IMG/VR virus record: IMGVR_UViG_3300050821_001792
Location: 1 to 22,923 of that record
Strand: one strand, 5' to 3'
DNA from: a virus
Length of the DNA: 22,923 bases
Shown here: positions 4,957-21,388 of the stretch, piece by piece
Layout: each line of letters opens with the position of its first letter
Position numbering within the stretch: position 1 is the first letter of the stretch
The notes under the pieces: model-generated
The model's database searches: none
What the model was told of the DNA's origin: nothing
What the model saw: only the letters and a program-made list of their open reading frames with translations
Position numbers and translations under genes: made by a program

Positions 4957-6165
4957 ATGGGCGCCACCGATGCCCTGCTCGCCCGACTACAGGGCGAGAT
5001 CGAAGAGCGTTCGAGCTTTCTCAACAACCTAGTTGAGGGAGCCGAAGCCGATAAACGCGACCTGACCGAGCAAGAAATGACGCTGCTCGCACGCACCCGC
5101 GAGCGCATCCAAGCGATCAACGAACAGGTTGGGCCGCTGCAAGCCGCCGCCAAGATCGCGGCGGACTCCCACAAACGCACCGCGGAGATCGCCCGCGAAT
5201 TCGCCGAGGCCCGCGACCCCGGCGCCACCAAGCCGCTGGAATACCGGTCCGCCGGCCAATACGCCGTCGACATGTGGCGGGCCGGACTCGGCAACGATGA
5301 GGCCCGGCAACGGCTCGAACTGTTCAACCGGGCCGCGGCACACCAGACAACCGGCGACAACCCCGGTTTGCTCCCCGAGCAAATCTTGGGGCCGGTGGTC
5401 AATTTCATCGACGCCGCACGACCGCTCGTGAGCGCGCTCGGACCGCGCCAGTTGCCCGCCGGCAACTGGTCCCGCCCGCAAGTCATCCAACACACGCAGG
5501 TGGGCCCACAGACGGCAGAAAAAGCCGAGTTGGTGTCCCGCAAAATGACGATCAACAACGTTCCGGTAGCCGCCAAGACCTATGGCGGATACGTGAACGT
5601 TTCGCGGCAAAACATCGACTGGTCACAACCCGCGGTCATGGACATCGTGATCAACGACCTGGCCGCGCAATACGCGCTCGAAACCGAGAACGTCACCGGC
5701 GCCGACCTCACCGCCGCGGCAACCGCCGGGCCGACGCTCCCGGCCACCCCGACCAACGCCGACGTTGCCGCCGCGGTCTGGGCCGCGGCCGGGTTGGTGT
5801 ACGCCGCCACGAAGGGCCAAGGGCGACTCTTGCTCGTCTGTTCGCCCGACATGCTCGGCCTGATCGGACCGCTGTTCGCCCCCGTCAACCCGACCAACGC
5901 CCAGTCGACCGGTTTTACCGCCGGCAACTTTGGCCAAGGTGCCATGGGCGCGATCTCCGGAATTGCGGTGATCGTTTCCGCCGGCCTAGCCGCCGGCACC
6001 GTGCTCGTGCTCTCAACCGCCGCCGCGGAGGTGTACGAAGACCGCATCGGCGCGTTGCAGGTAGTCGAACCGTCGGTGTTGGGTGTGCAGGTTGCCTATG
6101 CCGGCTACTTCGCCGACCTGCCGTTGGCGCCGGCCGGGATTATCAAAGTGTCGGTGACGCCATGA
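4957..6165 (+). CDS. Major capsid protein (HK97 fold)
   Basis: Structural subunit of the icosahedral head, 402 aa. AAAGGA at 4941-4946 lies 10 bases before the ATG, in a 92-base gap that also holds a GATG/CATC mini-hairpin. Residues 1 to about 75 form a charged helical region (GEIEERSSFLNNLVEGAEAD and onward) that serves as the scaffold/delta domain removed by the neighbouring protease. The HK97 core follows, with LLPEQILGPVVNFIDAARPL (N-arm/E-loop side), VPVAAKTYGGYVNVSRQNID, and the C-terminal P-domain and A-domain strands. Ala and Gly stretches near 240-260 are typical of actinophage capsids. No separate scaffold gene is needed. Confidence 0.93.
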   Translation: MGATDALLARLQGEIEERSSFLNNLVEGAEADKRDLTEQEMTLLARTRERIQAINEQVGPLQAAAKIAADSHKRTAEIAREFAEARDPGATKPLEYRSAGQYAVDMWRAGLGNDEARQRLELFNRAAAHQTTGDNPGLLPEQILGPVVNFIDAARPLVSALGPRQLPAGNWSRPQVIQHTQVGPQTAEKAELVSRKMTINNVPVAAKTYGGYVNVSRQNIDWSQPAVMDIVINDLAAQYALETENVTGADLTAAATAGPTLPATPTNADVAAAVWAAAGLVYAATKGQGRLLLVCSPDMLGLIGPLFAPVNPTNAQSTGFTAGNFGQGAMGAISGIAVIVSAGLAAGTVLVLSTAAAEVYEDRIGALQVVEPSVLGVQVAYAGYFADLPLAPAGIIKVSVTP

Positions 6166-12526: not shown

Positions 12527-12996
12527 GCGTCCCAACGACCCGCACGCTTGGGAGCGTGCTACGGCGGGCGTTGGACACCGGCTCGCCGTTGCGAATCCTG
12601 CTTGGGGAGTACGCCGGCCCGAGCGACGATCCGCGTTACGCCAACGTCGAATTGTCCGGCACCGTTTATCGGGTGCCGCAGCTAAACGGCATGGACCCGC
12701 AACCGGCCGGGGCGCCGGCCTACGTGCTTTCGGACGGGTCGCGAATGTGGGTGCTCGGCACCGTTACCGAAATTCCGTCGGCGGGCGGGCCACCCGGCCC
12801 GCAGGGGCCGACGGGCGCAACCGGCCCGAGCGGGCCGACGGGTCCCGCCGGCGCCATGGGTGCCACTGGGCCGGCGGGCCCGGCCGGGCCGACTGGACCG
12901 ACTGGCGCCGCCGGGCCGGCCGGTGCGACTGGCGCGACCGGTCCGCAAGGCCCGCCCGGAACTGGCCCGTTTATCTACTCTCAATTGCATAGTTAG
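12523..12996 (+). CDS. Collagen-like tail fibre protein
   Basis: 157 aa, GTG start at 12523 chosen because it overlaps the preceding TGA. Residues 1-85 form a beta-rich head ([25 protein letters not shown]), the anchoring part. Residues about 89-146 are 19 consecutive Gly-X-Y triplets ([15 protein letters not shown]...), which should fold as a collagen triple helix, so the protein is probably a trimer. The C terminus is a short non-collagen tip (FIYSQLHS), with no foldon-like trimerisation domain visible. A tail-tip fibre or spacer is likely. Confidence 0.88.
12787..12957 (+). repeat. Gly-X-Y collagen-like coding repeat
   Basis: 19 consecutive 9-base units encoding Gly-X-Y, dominated by GGN-CCN and GGN-GCN codons with Thr or Ala in the third place. 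The units differ at synonymous sites, so this is a diverged tandem array. Confidence 0.9.
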
Positions 12997-14405: not shown

Positions 14406-14620
14406 CGTTCGCGTTTGTCATCGCCGCATTGACATTCGGCTTAGGAATATGTGTCGATCGCCTATTGATCGCCACCCGTGAACTGAAACGATCGCACCGG
14501 CGTCGGCGAGAAATCGAAACGCACGGCGCCGACGCCGTCGAATCGTGGCTAGAGGCCACCGACTGGACCGCGCTACGCCCGAGCAACGGAACACCGTTCC
14601 AAGGTGAGCCGGCCGAATGA
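14402..14620 (+). CDS. Small single-pass membrane protein
   Basis: 72 aa. Residues 2-21 (TFAFVIAALTFGLGICVDRL) form one transmembrane helix, followed by a strongly basic patch (RELKRSHRRRREIE) and an acidic, Trp-containing tail. This predicts an N-out, C-in membrane anchor. Start ATGA overlaps the regulator stop. No family recognised. Superinfection exclusion is a common role for such proteins near phage regulators, but that is a guess. Confidence 0.68.
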   Translation: MTFAFVIAALTFGLGICVDRLLIATRELKRSHRRRREIETHGADAVESWLEATDWTALRPSNGTPFQGEPAE

Positions 14621-14982
14621 GCGTCGCCGCGCACCCCGACACCGGAGAGTTGCGCGGCAACCTCGCCGAGCAAGACCCCGAATGGCTAGCCGAAGCGCTA
14701 GCCGCAATCCGGGCCCGGCAAGCGCAATTCGATGAATGGGCGTCCGCGCTCGAATACGAATTGCGCCGGCGACTCGGCACCCACAAATTCGCGGTCTACG
14801 GCGACTGGGAAGTGTGGAAAAAACCAAGCCGGCGCCTGACTGTCACCAAATCCGTTCAACTCCCCGCGGCGGTTGTGGAGACTCCGTCGAATTCCGTGAC
14901 TGCCACAACGTCCAAAACAGACGTGCCGGCGACGGAGTCTCCACAACCGCCGCGGCTAAACGCCGAGGAGCTATTTAGATGA
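14617..14982 (+). CDS. Unknown early protein with a coding inverted repeat
   Basis: 121 aa, ATGA-coupled to neighbours at both ends. The N-terminal 70 residues are helical (QDPEWLAEALAAIRARQAQF) followed by a two-strand motif (KFAVYGDWEVWKKPSRRLTV). The C-terminal 40 residues are low-complexity Thr/Ser/Pro/Val, and are exactly where a perfect 26-bp inverted repeat with a 40-base loop lies (14864-14955). No family recognised. The next gene is a putative recombination protein, so a recombination accessory is possible, unproven. Confidence 0.75.
   Translation: MSVAAHPDTGELRGNLAEQDPEWLAEALAAIRARQAQFDEWASALEYELRRRLGTHKFAVYGDWEVWKKPSRRLTVTKSVQLPAAVVETPSNSVTATTSKTDVPATESPQPPRLNAEELFR
14864..14955. 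repeat. Perfect 26-bp inverted repeat inside a gene
   Basis: The arm at 14864-14889 (begins CCGCGGCGGTTGTGG) is the exact reverse complement of 14930-14955 (ends CCACAACCGCCGCGG). A 40-base loop separates them and contains a second small stem, ACGTC/GACGT (14908-14912 and 14920-14924). No target-site duplication is seen outside the arms. The arms encode low-complexity, probably linker, residues. Confidence 0.92.
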
Positions 14983-15860
14983 GCACCGACCTGGCGCCGG
15001 CACCGACCCGAGCACCCGTAACCCTGTTCAACGGCGCGACGCCCGACGACATAACCACCGCCGCCCGCGACGTCGCGAACCGGTTTTCGGACATAGTCAA
15101 GCAACAACGCCTATACAAACGAATAGGTGACCGCGACCACATACTGATCGAGGCATGGCAAACGATCGGCACGCTAACCGGCGTGTTCGCAACCGAGGCC
15201 GGCGGTGTTCGCGAATTGCCATGGCCAGACGTCGAGAGAATGGTTTGGCTTGACGATGAGCCACCGCACCCCGGCCCCGAGCCGCGCGACCGCAACACCG
15301 ACGATTGGCACACCTGGCGGGCCGCAGACGAGCTACGCAAAACGTTCGACCACCAAAACATGCTCATTCGATCGCACGCACTCGGCCGATCGTTTGGATT
15401 CTCGGCGGCGTTCCGCGCCGTCAAAGACGGCCGCGAAGTCGGGTGGGGGGAAGGACGCGTCGACCGGTCAGAGCGCACGTGGGCCGGCCGTGACGACTAC
15501 GCCCTAGCGTCAATGGCTCAAACCCGCGGCCAGTCTCGCGCTCTGGGAGCCCCGCTACGGTTCATTGTCAAGCTCGCCGGCTACGAACCCACGTTGCCCG
15601 ACGACATGCCACCGGAGGCCGCGCAGAGCCCCACGGGGCCCGTTTTGCCGTGGGGGCCGGTAACCGACAAAGACGAAGACCTGAAAGGCGCCGCCGAGTC
15701 CGTCAAACACATAACCGGGATTGACGGGGAGTCGTTTGTAATCGCCATGGGCGACCGGTTCGACGGGGTCCCGGAAGCGTGCCTAATCATGCTCCGCGGC
15801 CTAGCCAAATTCGTTGCCCGGTCGCAACCGACCCCGACCGAAACGGAGGCCACCGAATGA
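14979..15860 (+). CDS. Putative phage recombination/ssDNA-annealing protein
   Basis: 293 aa. DHILIEAWQTIGTLTGVFAT (about 54-73), SFGFSAAFRAVKDGREVGWG (about 138-157) and DYALASMAQTRGQSRALGAP then LRFIVKLAGYE (about 172-203) form a conserved-looking core, similar in style to phage ERF/Rad52-like annealing proteins, which often show an SMAQTRAxSRALR stretch. The C-terminal 90 residues vary. Location directly before the SSB-like gene supports a recombination role. The family assignment is not certain. A small CCCCACGG/CCGTGGGG hairpin lies at 15629-15655 in the linker part. Confidence 0.55.
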   Translation: MSTDLAPAPTRAPVTLFNGATPDDITTAARDVANRFSDIVKQQRLYKRIGDRDHILIEAWQTIGTLTGVFATEAGGVRELPWPDVERMVWLDDEPPHPGPEPRDRNTDDWHTWRAADELRKTFDHQNMLIRSHALGRSFGFSAAFRAVKDGREVGWGEGRVDRSERTWAGRDDYALASMAQTRGQSRALGAPLRFIVKLAGYEPTLPDDMPPEAAQSPTGPVLPWGPVTDKDEDLKGAAESVKHITGIDGESFVIAMGDRFDGVPEACLIMLRGLAKFVARSQPTPTETEATE

Positions 15861-16318
15861 GCGTCGACAACGAATTTGCGGCGTTTAAAAACGCCGCCGA
15901 CGAAGGTGACCGCACCGAACCGCCCGACGGCAACCACACCGCCACGTTGGTGGTCGCCAAAGTTGGACGCTCCAAAGCCGGCGATCCGCTCGTAATCCTC
16001 GAATGGCAAACCGAAGATTTCGCGTTTTACTGGACCACCTTTCACGGTGTTGGCGGGCAAGCTGCCGCGCACACCGACCGGTTGTTAGGTGACCTCGGCA
16101 TCGACACCGGCGAAATTCAGAGCTTTAGTGAACTGTCCGACGAGCTAGCCGCCGCCGAGGGTCGCACGTTCATTGTCAACGTCAAGCGCAACGGCACCTG
16201 GCTCAACCTGAAAGTGTTGGAGCGACCGACCGAGGTGCAAACGCAAATCAAAGTGGCGCCGCCGCCGGCCGAGAAGCCGCGCAACGCGATCTTTGACGAT
16301 GACGACGTGCCATTTTGA
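15857..16318 (+). CDS. SSB-like protein with acidic C-terminal tip
   Basis: 153 aa from the ATG at 15857, which overlaps the preceding stop. The body is beta-rich (NHTATLVVAKVGRSKAGDPL, FAFYWTTFHGVGG, TFIVNVKRNGTWLNLKVLER), compatible with an OB-type fold. It ends in DDDDVPF, the hallmark acidic tip by which SSB proteins recruit replication and repair partners. The middle, EKPRNAIF, is a flexible linker. Role: protects ssDNA in phage replication and recombination. Position between the recombination-type gene and the primase fits. Alternative: a DUF669/gp2.5-type ssDNA-binding protein. Confidence 0.78.
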   Translation: MSVDNEFAAFKNAADEGDRTEPPDGNHTATLVVAKVGRSKAGDPLVILEWQTEDFAFYWTTFHGVGGQAAAHTDRLLGDLGIDTGEIQSFSELSDELAAAEGRTFIVNVKRNGTWLNLKVLERPTEVQTQIKVAPPPAEKPRNAIFDDDDVPF

Positions 16319-16579: not shown

Positions 16580-17362
16580 ATGGTCACGTTGCGCTATGCG
16601 ATCGAATACGCCCGCCACGGGTGGCCGGTGCTCGTCACCGAACCGGCCGGAAAGCTCCCGCTCACCCGGCACGGCGTCAAAGACGCCACGATCGACCCGC
16701 ACCAAATCGAACGATGGTTCGCCCGGTGGCCGCGGGCGAACCTCGCGGTTGCGACCGGTGCTCCCGGTCCGCAAGTACTCGACATTGACGATTTGGACGC
16801 CGCCGCCGGCACCCTCTCGCAACTGTCCGACGTGCCATGCGTCGCGACCGCCCGAGGGCGACACTATTGGTTCGCCGGCGTCGGCGAACGCACAATCACG
16901 CTCGGCTATGGGGAGCTACGCGGCCGCGGTTCGTATGTGATCGCCCCGCCGTCGATCCACGAAACCGGCACCGAATACGTGTGGCTGTTGGCGCCGCACG
17001 GACCGCTACCGGCGCCGCCGGCGATCCGCGGCACCTACGCCGGCACCGGCACCCACCACCCGCCGCCGAAACCGATCGTTGCCGGCGAAGGCCGGTGGCC
17101 ATATTTGCGCGACTTCGCGGTGCGATTGGTCCGCGCCGGCGTCACGGACCGCGGGCGGATCGCCGCGCACCTACGCACCGAATTCGAGGTGTCGTGCGAA
17201 CCGGACCCGCCGGCGTCACCCGGTGCGCTCGACGCCCTGGCGGAATGGGCCGCACGCTCCCAAATCGCCGATCGAGAGCGTGCCGTCGATCACTTCGAAA
17301 CCCGGATACGAAACTGGAGAGAAACCGATGGCAGACAAGACCCTGCCCGACCTGCCGCGTAG
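16580..17362 (+). CDS. Bifunctional primase-polymerase (Prim-Pol)
   Basis: 260 aa with the N-terminal Prim-Pol (AEP primase) layout. GKLPL and HGVKDATIDP (24-40), the WPRANLAVATG segment (50-60), the metal-binding VLDIDD with Asp68/Asp70/Asp71, the nucleotide-binding ATARGRHYWF with Arg94/His95 (89-98), and the RGRGSYVIAPPSIH loop with Arg116, Ser125 and His127. This is a catalytic domain only: no helicase domain follows. It makes primers, and possibly DNA, for phage replication. The start has no strong ribosome-binding site but abuts the upstream stop. It overlaps the next gene start by 35 bases. Confidence 0.88.
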   Translation: MVTLRYAIEYARHGWPVLVTEPAGKLPLTRHGVKDATIDPHQIERWFARWPRANLAVATGAPGPQVLDIDDLDAAAGTLSQLSDVPCVATARGRHYWFAGVGERTITLGYGELRGRGSYVIAPPSIHETGTEYVWLLAPHGPLPAPPAIRGTYAGTGTHHPPPKPIVAGEGRWPYLRDFAVRLVRAGVTDRGRIAAHLRTEFEVSCEPDPPASPGALDALAEWAARSQIADRERAVDHFETRIRNWRETDGRQDPARPAA

Positions 17363-18245
17363 GACCGACACCGTCGAGCGTTGGTGCGCTTGGGCAACAA
17401 CCGCGCTCCACGCCGAGGAAATCCCGATCGTTGGCGTCTATTCGTTGACGTCTGACGACGGCGCCGAGGCCGCGATCGTTATCCAGTTGGCCAACCGTCA
17501 TGAGATCCTGATTTGCCCGGCCCGGACATTGGCGTCCCGGCGAATCTCTGACGAATTCGTTGTGCTCGGATGCCCGGTGCCGTATTACTCGCCGGCGCAA
17601 ATCCAGGTGATCGCGACCGCTATTGGAACGATCGCCCGTCGGTCGCGCATCGAGCAAAACGAAACGCGGTCCTACGTCGAGTTTTCGAGCTTGGGCGCCG
17701 AGTGGATCGAACGGTGCCGGCGCCACTCCCCGATCATCGAGCTAACCGGCCGTGACGGGCCGGCGGTGCGCTCGGCGATCTCCCGGGTGCGGTCAACGAC
17801 CGCTGAGCGCGACGTCGACCGGTTGGGCCCGCCGTCGATCATTCACGACCTCGCCGCCGACGAACTGTTGATTTGGACGACCCCATTTCGGCGGTATGTG
17901 AGGGAGCGTCGGGGGACGACGTCAGACGACCTGTTGGGCGTTCAAATGCAACGCGCCGGTTGGCGTCGGGTGAGGCTTGCGGCGAGGCCCGGACCGGGCC
18001 AAAAAGGCACCGTCGAGATGCCGGTTTGGAGCGTTCCCAACGGTTTCCAGGGATCGAACCTCGAAAACACGTCGTTTCCAGGGATTTTGCAAGCCGACTC
18101 CGAAAACGTTGTAGATCGTTCGGACCTCTCTACGTACGTGCGTACACACGCACACGGGCTTAATAGAACGGTCTACAACGCCCAACGCGATCAAGACGAC
18201 TGGCAGACGTTCCGCCACGCCGTCGCCGGCGAGATCCAGATATGA
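17328..18245 (+). CDS. Unknown replication-region protein
   Basis: 305 aa; ATG 17328 chosen because GGAGA (17316-17320) lies 8 bases before it. No Walker A or other enzyme motif is visible. The N-terminal 140 residues are alpha/beta (VERWCAWATTALHAEEIPIV, LANRHEILICPARTLASRRI). Around 200-240, TSDDLLGVQMQRAGWRRVRL looks like a winged-helix-type segment, as seen in C-terminal parts of some primase-helicases. The C-terminal 60 residues are encoded by a sequence full of repeats (18043-18180). It may be a helicase loader or origin-binding partner of the adjacent Prim-Pol; this is inference. Confidence 0.75.
   Translation: MADKTLPDLPRRTDTVERWCAWATTALHAEEIPIVGVYSLTSDDGAEAAIVIQLANRHEILICPARTLASRRISDEFVVLGCPVPYYSPAQIQVIATAIGTIARRSRIEQNETRSYVEFSSLGAEWIERCRRHSPIIELTGRDGPAVRSAISRVRSTTAERDVDRLGPPSIIHDLAADELLIWTTPFRRYVRERRGTTSDDLLGVQMQRAGWRRVRLAARPGPGQKGTVEMPVWSVPNGFQGSNLENTSFPGILQADSENVVDRSDLSTYVRTHAHGLNRTVYNAQRDQDDWQTFRHAVAGEIQI
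18043..18180. other. Candidate replication origin: direct and nested inverted repeats
   Basis: GTTTCCAGGGAT occurs twice (18043-18054 and 18074-18085), each followed by a CGAAAAC motif. CGTTGTAGATCG (18107-18118) faces CGGTCTACAACG (18169-18180), an inverted repeat matching at 11 of 12. Its centre holds GTGCGT-ACAC-ACGCAC (18138-18153). Local composition is AT-richer than the surrounding gene. Repeats of this kind next to a primase gene are typical of phage origins. Confidence 0.45.
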
Positions 18246-19895: not shown

Positions 19896-20089
19896 CTGTC
19901 CCGCTTTCGATCCGCGATCGGGTGCGCCAAGCCGTGCTCGACGCAATCACCGAAGGACTACGCCGCGAGCGTCCCGGCCACGAAATCACCGTCGTCAAAC
20001 CACCCGACCCGCTCGGCGAGTTGAGAGCGACCCGGCGACAACCGCAACGTCAAACCGTCCGCCGCGAGAATCCCAAGAGCACGCTGTAA
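19892..20089 (+). CDS. Small basic protein overlapping the integrase end
   Basis: 65 aa from an ATGA overlapping the preceding stop. It begins MTVPLSIRDRVRQAVLDAIT, a credible helix; the rest is basic and low in structure. Two-thirds of its length (from 19958) lies antisense to the 3' end of the integrase gene, so it is either a true convergent overlap or a truncated or partly spurious frame. Confidence 0.45.
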   Translation: MTVPLSIRDRVRQAVLDAITEGLRRERPGHEITVVKPPDPLGELRATRRQPQRQTVRRENPKSTL

Positions 20090-21304
20090 CTTCACGTCGT
20101 CGCCAAGCTCCTCAGCGGCCGGAAACAGTTCAAACGCCCCCGCTTGCGACGACAGGCGCCGATACTCGGCCCGGGCGTCCGACACCCGTTGTTCGTGCAT
20201 CGCCGCACCCTCGGCCCACGCCGACGGATCGCTGAGGCCGGCGACCGCAAGCGCGTAGTTCCGCTGATCGGTTTGGGCACGCTCCAACTCTTCGCGGGCT
20301 TTATCGACGCCGGCCGGCAACAACCGGTCGCGAATCTCGTCACGCTCAACCACCGAACGCAATTCTGCGCGCACCAACGCGTCGAGCGCATCGGCGTTGC
20401 ACGACGTGTGGCCATCCGCGCACCGGTAGCGGCGAAGTTCATACGCCCGGTCGGTGTACGCCTGCCGTTGGCCGATCAACGTCGCCCCACACGAGCACCG
20501 CACCAACCCCGAAAGCAGATACTCGCCGTTAGCGCGACGTGACCGCGGCGAATGCTGAGCCAACGACCACGTTGGTTCGTCAATCAACGCCGGATGCGGT
20601 TTGTAGCCGTCAAGACCGCGGCCGGCGTGCTCGCCGAGATACGTTCGCGACGCCAACAGTTTGCGAACCATGTCCGTGCGCCACTTCCGCTCGTCTGGCG
20701 CGACGTCGCGCAGATACTCGACCGCGGCTTGCCAACCGTCGCGTGCCGCCCGCCGAAACGTTTCGGTCACGATCGGCGCCCACCGCGGGTCGGGGATCAA
20801 CGCACCCTTTCGCTTCGCGTAGCCAAACGGCGTGATGCCGATGAACTTGCCCGCCGCTAACGCGTCGCGTTTGTTGAGCCGTTGGCGCTCAGACGCCTTA
20901 TTCCACATCGACCGGTTCATTTGCAACCGAAATACGAGCATGTCTTCGACGTTGGGGTCCGCAAGGTCGATCGGTTCGTCGCTCCAGTCGGCGGCGACCA
21001 ACGCGCCACCGTCGCCGACCAACTCGCGAACGAACGTCATCGACTCTTCGATGGGCGCCCGGCCGAGCCGATCGAGGTAGGCGACCAACACACCGTCGGT
21101 CGCGCCGCCGCGAACCCGGGCCCTGACTTCGCGAAGTGCTGCCCGGTCCATTGTCTTGCCCGATTCGCTACGCCCCGAGTCGTGCACCGTCGCGATCTCG
21201 TGGCCGGTGCGCCGAGCGAAATCGTCTGCGATTCGCCGCTGTTGGCCGGGGCTGATTGCGTCGCGTTTGCGATGGCTTGTACGGATGACTAGATCAAGGC
21301 GCAT
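19958..21304 (-). CDS. int: Large serine integrase
   Basis: 448 aa site-specific recombinase that integrates and excises the phage. Catalytic domain: LVIRTS with nucleophile Ser10, then PGQQRR, and AYLDRLGR with Arg79 and Arg82. The recombinase DNA-binding domain spans about 140-255 (GKFIGITPFGYAKR, MVRKLLASRTYLGE). A zinc ribbon lies at CSCG (C270, C272) with C295 and C302. A coiled-coil segment of about 335-385 (KAREELERAQTDQRNYALAV) is the part that controls direction in Bxb1-like integrases. The start at 21304 is preferred to GTG 21349, which would put 15 extra residues before the catalytic core and overlap the attP-like site. TATACA on the minus strand at 21345-21340 is a possible -10. 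No separate excisionase is recognisable. Confidence 0.95.
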   Translation of the reverse strand: MRLDLVIRTSHRKRDAISPGQQRRIADDFARRTGHEIATVHDSGRSESGKTMDRAALREVRARVRGGATDGVLVAYLDRLGRAPIEESMTFVRELVGDGGALVAADWSDEPIDLADPNVEDMLVFRLQMNRSMWNKASERQRLNKRDALAAGKFIGITPFGYAKRKGALIPDPRWAPIVTETFRRAARDGWQAAVEYLRDVAPDERKWRTDMVRKLLASRTYLGEHAGRGLDGYKPHPALIDEPTWSLAQHSPRSRRANGEYLLSGLVRCSCGATLIGQRQAYTDRAYELRRYRCADGHTSCNADALDALVRAELRSVVERDEIRDRLLPAGVDKAREELERAQTDQRNYALAVAGLSDPSAWAEGAAMHEQRVSDARAEYRRLSSQAGAFELFPAAEELGDDVKLQRALGILAADGLTLRLSPGRSQLAERVGWFDDGDFVAGTLAA

Positions 21305-21340
21305 TGGTGGTCCATTTCGGTCGGGGTGCGTCCCAGAAGT

Positions 21341-21388
21341 GTATACCACTAAGCGAAAGGCATGTGTGACATTCGCCTAAGCGTATAC
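21341..21388. other. attP: Candidate attP site
   Basis: 48-bp imperfect dyad beginning and ending with GTATAC. Left half positions 1-18 against the reverse complement of the right half agree at 13 of 18. Inner arms carry AAGCGAA and TTCGCCT. The exact centre (21364-21365) is GT. It lies 37 bases upstream of the integrase start. Size, symmetry, location and a GT centre are all as in Bxb1-type attP sites. Confidence 0.7.

Follow-up and report, generated by a model that had tools for sequence, protein, structure and literature searches.

A hairpin kept by base pairing rather than by sequence inside the coding linker of an early gene in related soil phages

The closest described counterparts of the element reported here are the hairpins of selective RNA processing and stabilisation (SRPS), known from cggR-gapA and glnR-glnA of B. 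subtilis and from cip-cel of Clostridium cellulolyticum, in which a strong hairpin likewise lies between two operon genes. In the B. subtilis cggR and glnR operons, a stabilising hairpin is located downstream of an RNase Y cut made after the first gene (PMC11780869), and SRPS stem-loops set operon stoichiometry (PMC4423207). The phage locus shares with these cases a stable hairpin at the boundary of co-transcribed genes (here with an ATGA overlap), a structure that can persist while its sequence changes, and an arrangement that would permit unequal expression of co-transcribed genes. However, the phage hairpin overlaps a coding linker almost entirely, has longer and nearly perfect stems, and belongs to early operons of phages whose hosts are probably actinobacterial, with cleavage and stability being predictions here. 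Another parallel is the pRN1-type origin of Prim-Pol plasmids, proposed also for phage BIP-1, in which a stem-loop of ~100 nt likewise lies near a Prim-Pol gene and, as at this locus, is conserved in structure and not in sequence. The pRN1-type stem-loop is positioned directly 3' of the Prim-Pol gene, whereas the phage repeat lies ~1.6 kb upstream of that gene, inside an open reading frame (ORF) and ahead of a putative recombinase gene; a second hairpin found in relatives fits the pRN1 description better. The origin of phage lambda, which has an inter-domain location in gene O, is likewise a cis-acting element hidden in a replication-module gene, but it consists of repeated iterons with conserved sequence, whereas the phage element is one long hairpin in a gene whose product is not a known initiator. 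Rickettsia palindromic elements (RPEs) and MITEs are dispersed repeats, with the palindrome read in frame inside a gene; the phage hairpin, in contrast, is single-copy and vertically conserved by structure. No described hairpin of such a kind in phage coding linkers was found in the literature searched.

The window (the whole stretch of DNA analysed, a 22.9-kb viral contig) carries terminase and structural genes at its left, followed by an early operon encoding, in order, a Cro/C1-type regulator, a small ORF, the product of the hairpin-bearing gene (hereafter the hairpin gene), a 293-aa protein, an SSB-like protein, a Prim-Pol, a replication-module protein, and a RusA-like or PDDEXK nuclease (Table 1). 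The phage is probably temperate, since a large serine integrase is present. The 293-aa gene is a candidate single-strand-annealing (ERF-like) recombinase, its placement in the operon before the SSB-like gene being the one feature that points to this role. The 3' end of the hairpin gene (...GAGGAGCTATTTAGATGA) contains both the Shine-Dalgarno sequence and the start of the 293-aa gene, giving the order hairpin, Shine-Dalgarno, and overlapping start codon. A frameshift or fusion with the next gene was rejected, as a TAG stands just ahead of its ATG in the same frame. The conserved EELF end is largely the Shine-Dalgarno sequence read in frame (GAGGAG CTN TTC ... ATGA), so the apparent protein conservation of the C-terminal EELF(A/K/R), encoded at 14965-14982, may in fact be conservation of the ribosome-binding site.

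Table 1. Coordinates of the hairpin, its operon and the second stem-loops of relatives (window positions unless a contig is named)
Feature	Position	Strand	Description
Hairpin gene	14617-14982	+	121 aa; weakly related to PHROG 2480 (unknown function)
Left arm	14864-14889	+	26 nt, CCGCGGCGGTTGTGGAGACTCCGTCG; begins one base into the linker, directly after the conserved LTVTKSVQL motif
Loop	14890-14929	+	40 nt; length not conserved, 9-51 nt in homologues
Right arm	14930-14955	+	26 nt, CGACGGAGTCTCCACAACCGCCGCGG; codes for the segment that ends in SPQPP(R), homologous to the P-x-[QE]-x-P of relatives
Shine-Dalgarno GAGGAG of next gene	14965-14970	+	9 nt past right arm; in-frame reading gives the conserved C-terminal EELF
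293-aa downstream gene	14979-15860	+	start overlaps stop of hairpin gene (ATGA); weak match to PHROG 19042 (unknown function)
SSB-like protein	15857-16318	+	acidic tail DDDDVPF; PHROG 378, weak
Prim-Pol (archaeo-eukaryotic primase)	16580-17362	+	same operon; PF09250, E 1e-31
Replication-module gene	17328-18245	+	second large stem-loop directly 3' in relatives; window without one
Large serine integrase	19958-21349	-	
Second stem-loop	L136:7746-7850		
Second stem-loop	L138:8559-8656		
Second stem-loop	L140:7888-7995		
Second stem-loop	L141:5342-5453		
Second stem-loop	L142:8542-8645		
Second stem-loop	L149:5903-5995		

Within a low-complexity stretch of the 121-aa ORF (PAAVVETPSNSVTATTSKTDVPATESPQPPR), the two arms are complementary at 26/26 positions, forming exact reverse complements around a 40-nt spacer, just as an earlier note made from the letters of the window had described. 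This repeat (14864-14955) is the sole long perfect one in the 22.9 kb. The longest perfect arm (loop <=100) in 60 first-order Markov replicas of the window reached 16 at most (mean 11.3), bearing out the view of that note that chance was very unlikely. It is also the best-scoring hairpin of the window by a custom script (score 71; runner-up 50), with fold z values of -7.1 as RNA and -9.3 as DNA relative to dinucleotide shuffles. Inversion of the loop, as in a phase-variable segment, would leave the ORF open in the window, an observation confined to one contig; the loops of relatives differ in length and sequence. An intrinsic terminator was rejected, because no T run is found 3' of the stem, where CTAAACGCCGAGGAG stands instead. 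Rfam 15 yielded no match above the gathering score for the hairpin (nine sources searched), and a 15-mer core gave 119 scattered matches to genome contigs from unrelated phyla, a pattern too short to be informative. The direct repeats of the window amount to ordinary coding similarity at low identity, and its lowest folding energies occur, by composition alone, in the collagen-like G-x-y repeat region of a tail protein (12779-12934).

For comparison, ten genes were assembled, that of the window and those of nine IMG/VR contigs, all metagenomic. The proteins of the relatives (about 180-215 aa) begin with a helical N-terminal region and finish with a short EELFA-like sequence; between these come an ~80-aa middle domain, a TVTRSVxL motif and a linker that varies. 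AlphaFold predicted folding as far as residue ~152 and disorder in the linker at residues 155-176. The window protein lacks the whole ~80-aa middle domain, which is present in all nine relatives, while retaining the N-terminus, the linker hairpin and the C-terminal end, indicating that the window gene has lost this domain yet kept the best hairpin. PHROG 2480 was weakly matched by six of nine family members, and structure comparison placed phage proteins annotated as RecB-like exonuclease, PD-(D/E)XK or Gp157 as fold neighbours, whereas a PDB fold search returned no significant match and no Pfam family was matched. Named phages in the collection contained no detectable homologue of the 121-aa protein or of the recombinase-type protein. 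A prophage homologue was not found in the actinobacterial genomes (~1,190 draws, some repeated), the sole match (L144) being discarded as a CobU/CobT-like host gene, and PHROG 2480 itself had no match in this genome set or the controls. The gene 3' of the hairpin gene belongs to at least three types (L137, L139 and L140; L142 and L143; the window, L136 and L141), while the hairpin gene stays unchanged. The junction between the two genes thus appears to be a module boundary for swapping recombinase-type genes.

The linker hairpin is present in nine of the ten homologues, at a variable and disordered linker flanked 5' by the conserved domain and 3' by the last few codons with the Shine-Dalgarno sequence and the ATGA overlap. 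It starts 1-15 nt past the conserved domain, and its right arm is usually separated from the next Shine-Dalgarno sequence by about 9-20 nt (about 50 nt in L137). Ranked against the best stems anywhere in each fetched stretch (6-23 kb), the hairpin came first in six genomes (the window, L136, L137, L138, L139 and L143), second in L149, fifth in L142 and twelfth in L141. It is absent from L140/L129 and weak in L141/L128, and is therefore not indispensable, one homologue having no hairpin and one a weak hairpin only. Shuffling the codon order of each linker gave p<=0.001 for the hairpin in 8/10 genes, and synonymous resampling of the linker gave the same in 7/10, whereas in the neighbouring recombinase and SSB-like genes the final 40 codons, which are also variable, reached p<=0.01 in 0/17. 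Windows of the last 40 codons truncate the hairpins of L137, L138 and L143, for which the linker codon shuffle is the proper test. Given these shuffles and neighbouring-gene controls, the hairpin cannot be put down to base composition or to an absence of constraint.

Both arms are formed by homologous codons, the left from an A-T-E-like motif and the right from a P-x-[QE]-x-P motif, and can therefore be aligned by protein without using the pairing. Two registers were analysed separately, one shared by five genomes and the other, differing by one codon, found in the window and L136. With their own arms, the five same-register genomes formed 86/110 Watson-Crick cells, whereas right arms swapped between them gave a mean of 59.5 and a maximum of 67, the true assignment being the best of 120 permutations. 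An independent pair counter applied to the five-genome register found 82.7% standard pairs, with 12 of the 22 pairs changed on both sides; by a statistic that ignores kinship, covariation was 0.505, compared with 0.230+-0.046 after shuffling (0/500) and <=0.18 in slid registers. The window and L136 retained 42/46 pairs, with five double changes. Pairing is complete in the upper stem (pairs 12-22; 55 cells), where the four exceptions to Watson-Crick are all G.U, with no A.C; mismatches in the lower stem fall where protein constraint is visible (Thr and Glu codons). The register is kept although the family proteins are only ~50-60% identical. These compensatory changes, together with the neighbouring-gene controls, indicate that the pairing is under selection, although neutral template switching keeps a small probability as the cause. 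Considering the conserved position, the compensatory changes, and the control genes without excess, sequence comparison identifies the repeat as a structure-conserved element overlapping coding sequence rather than an insertion, an artefact or a product of chance.

A mobile palindromic element of MITE or RPE type, inserted in frame, would explain long perfect arms in a low-complexity linker, and the earlier note, which had placed the repeat correctly in such a linker, thought it looked as if inserted and might be a tiny MITE. However, a linker of comparable length occupies this position in the homologues, most of which have a hairpin there, and their arms differ in sequence at the same codons, with no empty site among them; in addition, the element is single-copy in the contig, a search of 2.9 million viral contigs found its full arm in none, and no convincing target-site duplication is found, leaving this origin barely credible. 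Neutral palindrome growth, in which inverted repeats in a linker free of constraint are continually created and repaired by template switching as the DNA replicates, would leave a functionless hairpin; it fits a variable and disordered linker, and the mechanism would itself yield apparent compensatory changes. We nevertheless regard it as quite unlikely, as hairpins are not in excess in the C-terminal regions of the neighbouring recombinase and SSB genes, which vary just as much, the register survives such protein divergence, and mismatches at protein-constrained codons (Thr ACT vs Pro; Glu vs Glu) persist in several genomes. Frequent copying between arms would have erased these mismatches, while the flanking pairs have changed on both sides. 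The repeat is thus probably a working control element in a flexible coding stretch. The earlier note had suspected something functional and had held that homologues without conserved pairing would refute this; the comparison gave the opposite result, with compensatory changes keeping the pairing.

Tentatively, the likeliest role is that of an mRNA processing or stabilising hairpin that sets the expression of the downstream recombinase and SSB-like genes, and the last ~40 codons of the hairpin gene appear to act mainly as a translated intergenic region. The hairpin would act in the polycistronic early mRNA in the manner of SRPS, with endonucleolytic cleavage (by RNase III acting on the duplex of 22-28 bp, or by an RNase E-like enzyme beside the hairpin) splitting the message and separating the upstream gene from the downstream recombinase-SSB-primase message. 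The hairpin could then protect one end of the cleavage product, and the phage would produce more of its ssDNA-binding proteins, which are required in large amounts, than of the accessory protein encoded upstream. We infer RNA as the acting form, and with it cleavage, stabilisation and a shifted expression ratio; an mRNA element is favoured because the hairpin lies near the next Shine-Dalgarno sequence, the upper-stem exceptions are G.U only, and sense folding is more extreme than antisense in 8/10 genes (mean z -3.7 vs -2.6). However, the antisense strand folds at least as extremely as the sense strand in the window and L136, and over whole stems A.C mismatches are no rarer than G.T (11 vs 8), neither of which favours RNA. 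In addition, translating ribosomes would melt a hairpin in the linker.

The earlier note had listed an RNase III-type processing site and a translational brake among its candidates; the position just upstream of the next Shine-Dalgarno sequence is compatible with both, their mechanisms being predictions. A stem that holds up ribosomes where the folded domain ends, or that blocks independent entry so that the next gene needs coupling, would suit a hairpin that begins 1-15 nt past the conserved domain and ends a few codons ahead of the next Shine-Dalgarno sequence, and in the predicted fold of the window the stem is extended by pairing of CUCC (14860-14863) with the GGAG of that sequence. However, this pairing is not consistent in the folds of relatives, the distance to the Shine-Dalgarno sequence varies (about 9-50 nt), and in the window the hairpin has outlasted the middle domain of the protein, so that pausing or coupling seems quite improbable. 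The recombination or replication signal also proposed in the earlier note survives as a DNA-level reading, in which the single-stranded or supercoiled repeat folds as a hairpin or cruciform and is recognised by its structure, by the phage primase-polymerase, the single-strand-annealing protein (SSAP) or the product of the hairpin gene, serving as an origin or priming site within the gene. The operon encodes a Prim-Pol, structure without sequence conservation is reported for the ~100-nt pRN1 origin stem-loop behind the Prim-Pol gene, some phages having stem-loops like it (PMC4234260), mismatches over the whole stem lack a wobble bias, and PMC6022878 offers a precedent for an origin inside a gene, ori-lambda within gene O. 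A DNA role gains credibility because the same phages, six relatives in all, have a second structure-conserved stem-loop (22-28 bp) directly after the replication gene that resembles a DNA origin. However, the linker hairpin lies upstream of the recombinase gene rather than behind that of the primase, it accompanies the upstream gene across differing types of downstream gene, the hairpins share no common motif or loop, and folding is mostly stronger in the sense strand. We consider the DNA-level reading the chief competitor of the mRNA reading, albeit a rather unlikely one. With similarly modest likelihood, the repeat may represent a previously undescribed kind of cis-acting stem-loop, preserved through its shape alone and concealed within the linker-coding part of a recombination-module gene, which would start replication or regulate its own operon and whose folded ssDNA (or RNA) would be recognised by the single-strand-annealing, SSB-like or Gp157-like proteins of the phage.

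The window repeat appears to be the strongest example of a hairpin that related soil phages have kept at the same place inside a gene adjoining one of putative DNA-recombination type, its letters changing among relatives while the pairing is preserved. The disordered protein linker looks like a by-product, the stretch apparently being retained for its pairing and for the ribosome-binding site that serves the next gene, even in a protein that has lost most of its folded domain. Should the mRNA reading be true, uncultured soil phages would set the ratio of their recombination proteins via a hairpin written in the previous gene; should the DNA reading be true, a replication or recombination signal recognised by shape would be hidden inside a gene. 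Under either reading, searches restricted to conserved sequence, or to the spaces between genes, would miss the hairpin.

Two further structures were observed in relatives. In L138, a second strong hairpin (5552-5590) with a 12-bp ungapped stem directly follows the first within the linker. In addition, whereas the window has no second stem-loop after the homologous gene, six related contigs carry a second large stem-loop just past the stop codon of the replication-module gene, resembling a pRN1-type origin; the stems differ in sequence and enclose loops of 37-56 nt, and the motif TACTCCGTAG occurs in 4/6.
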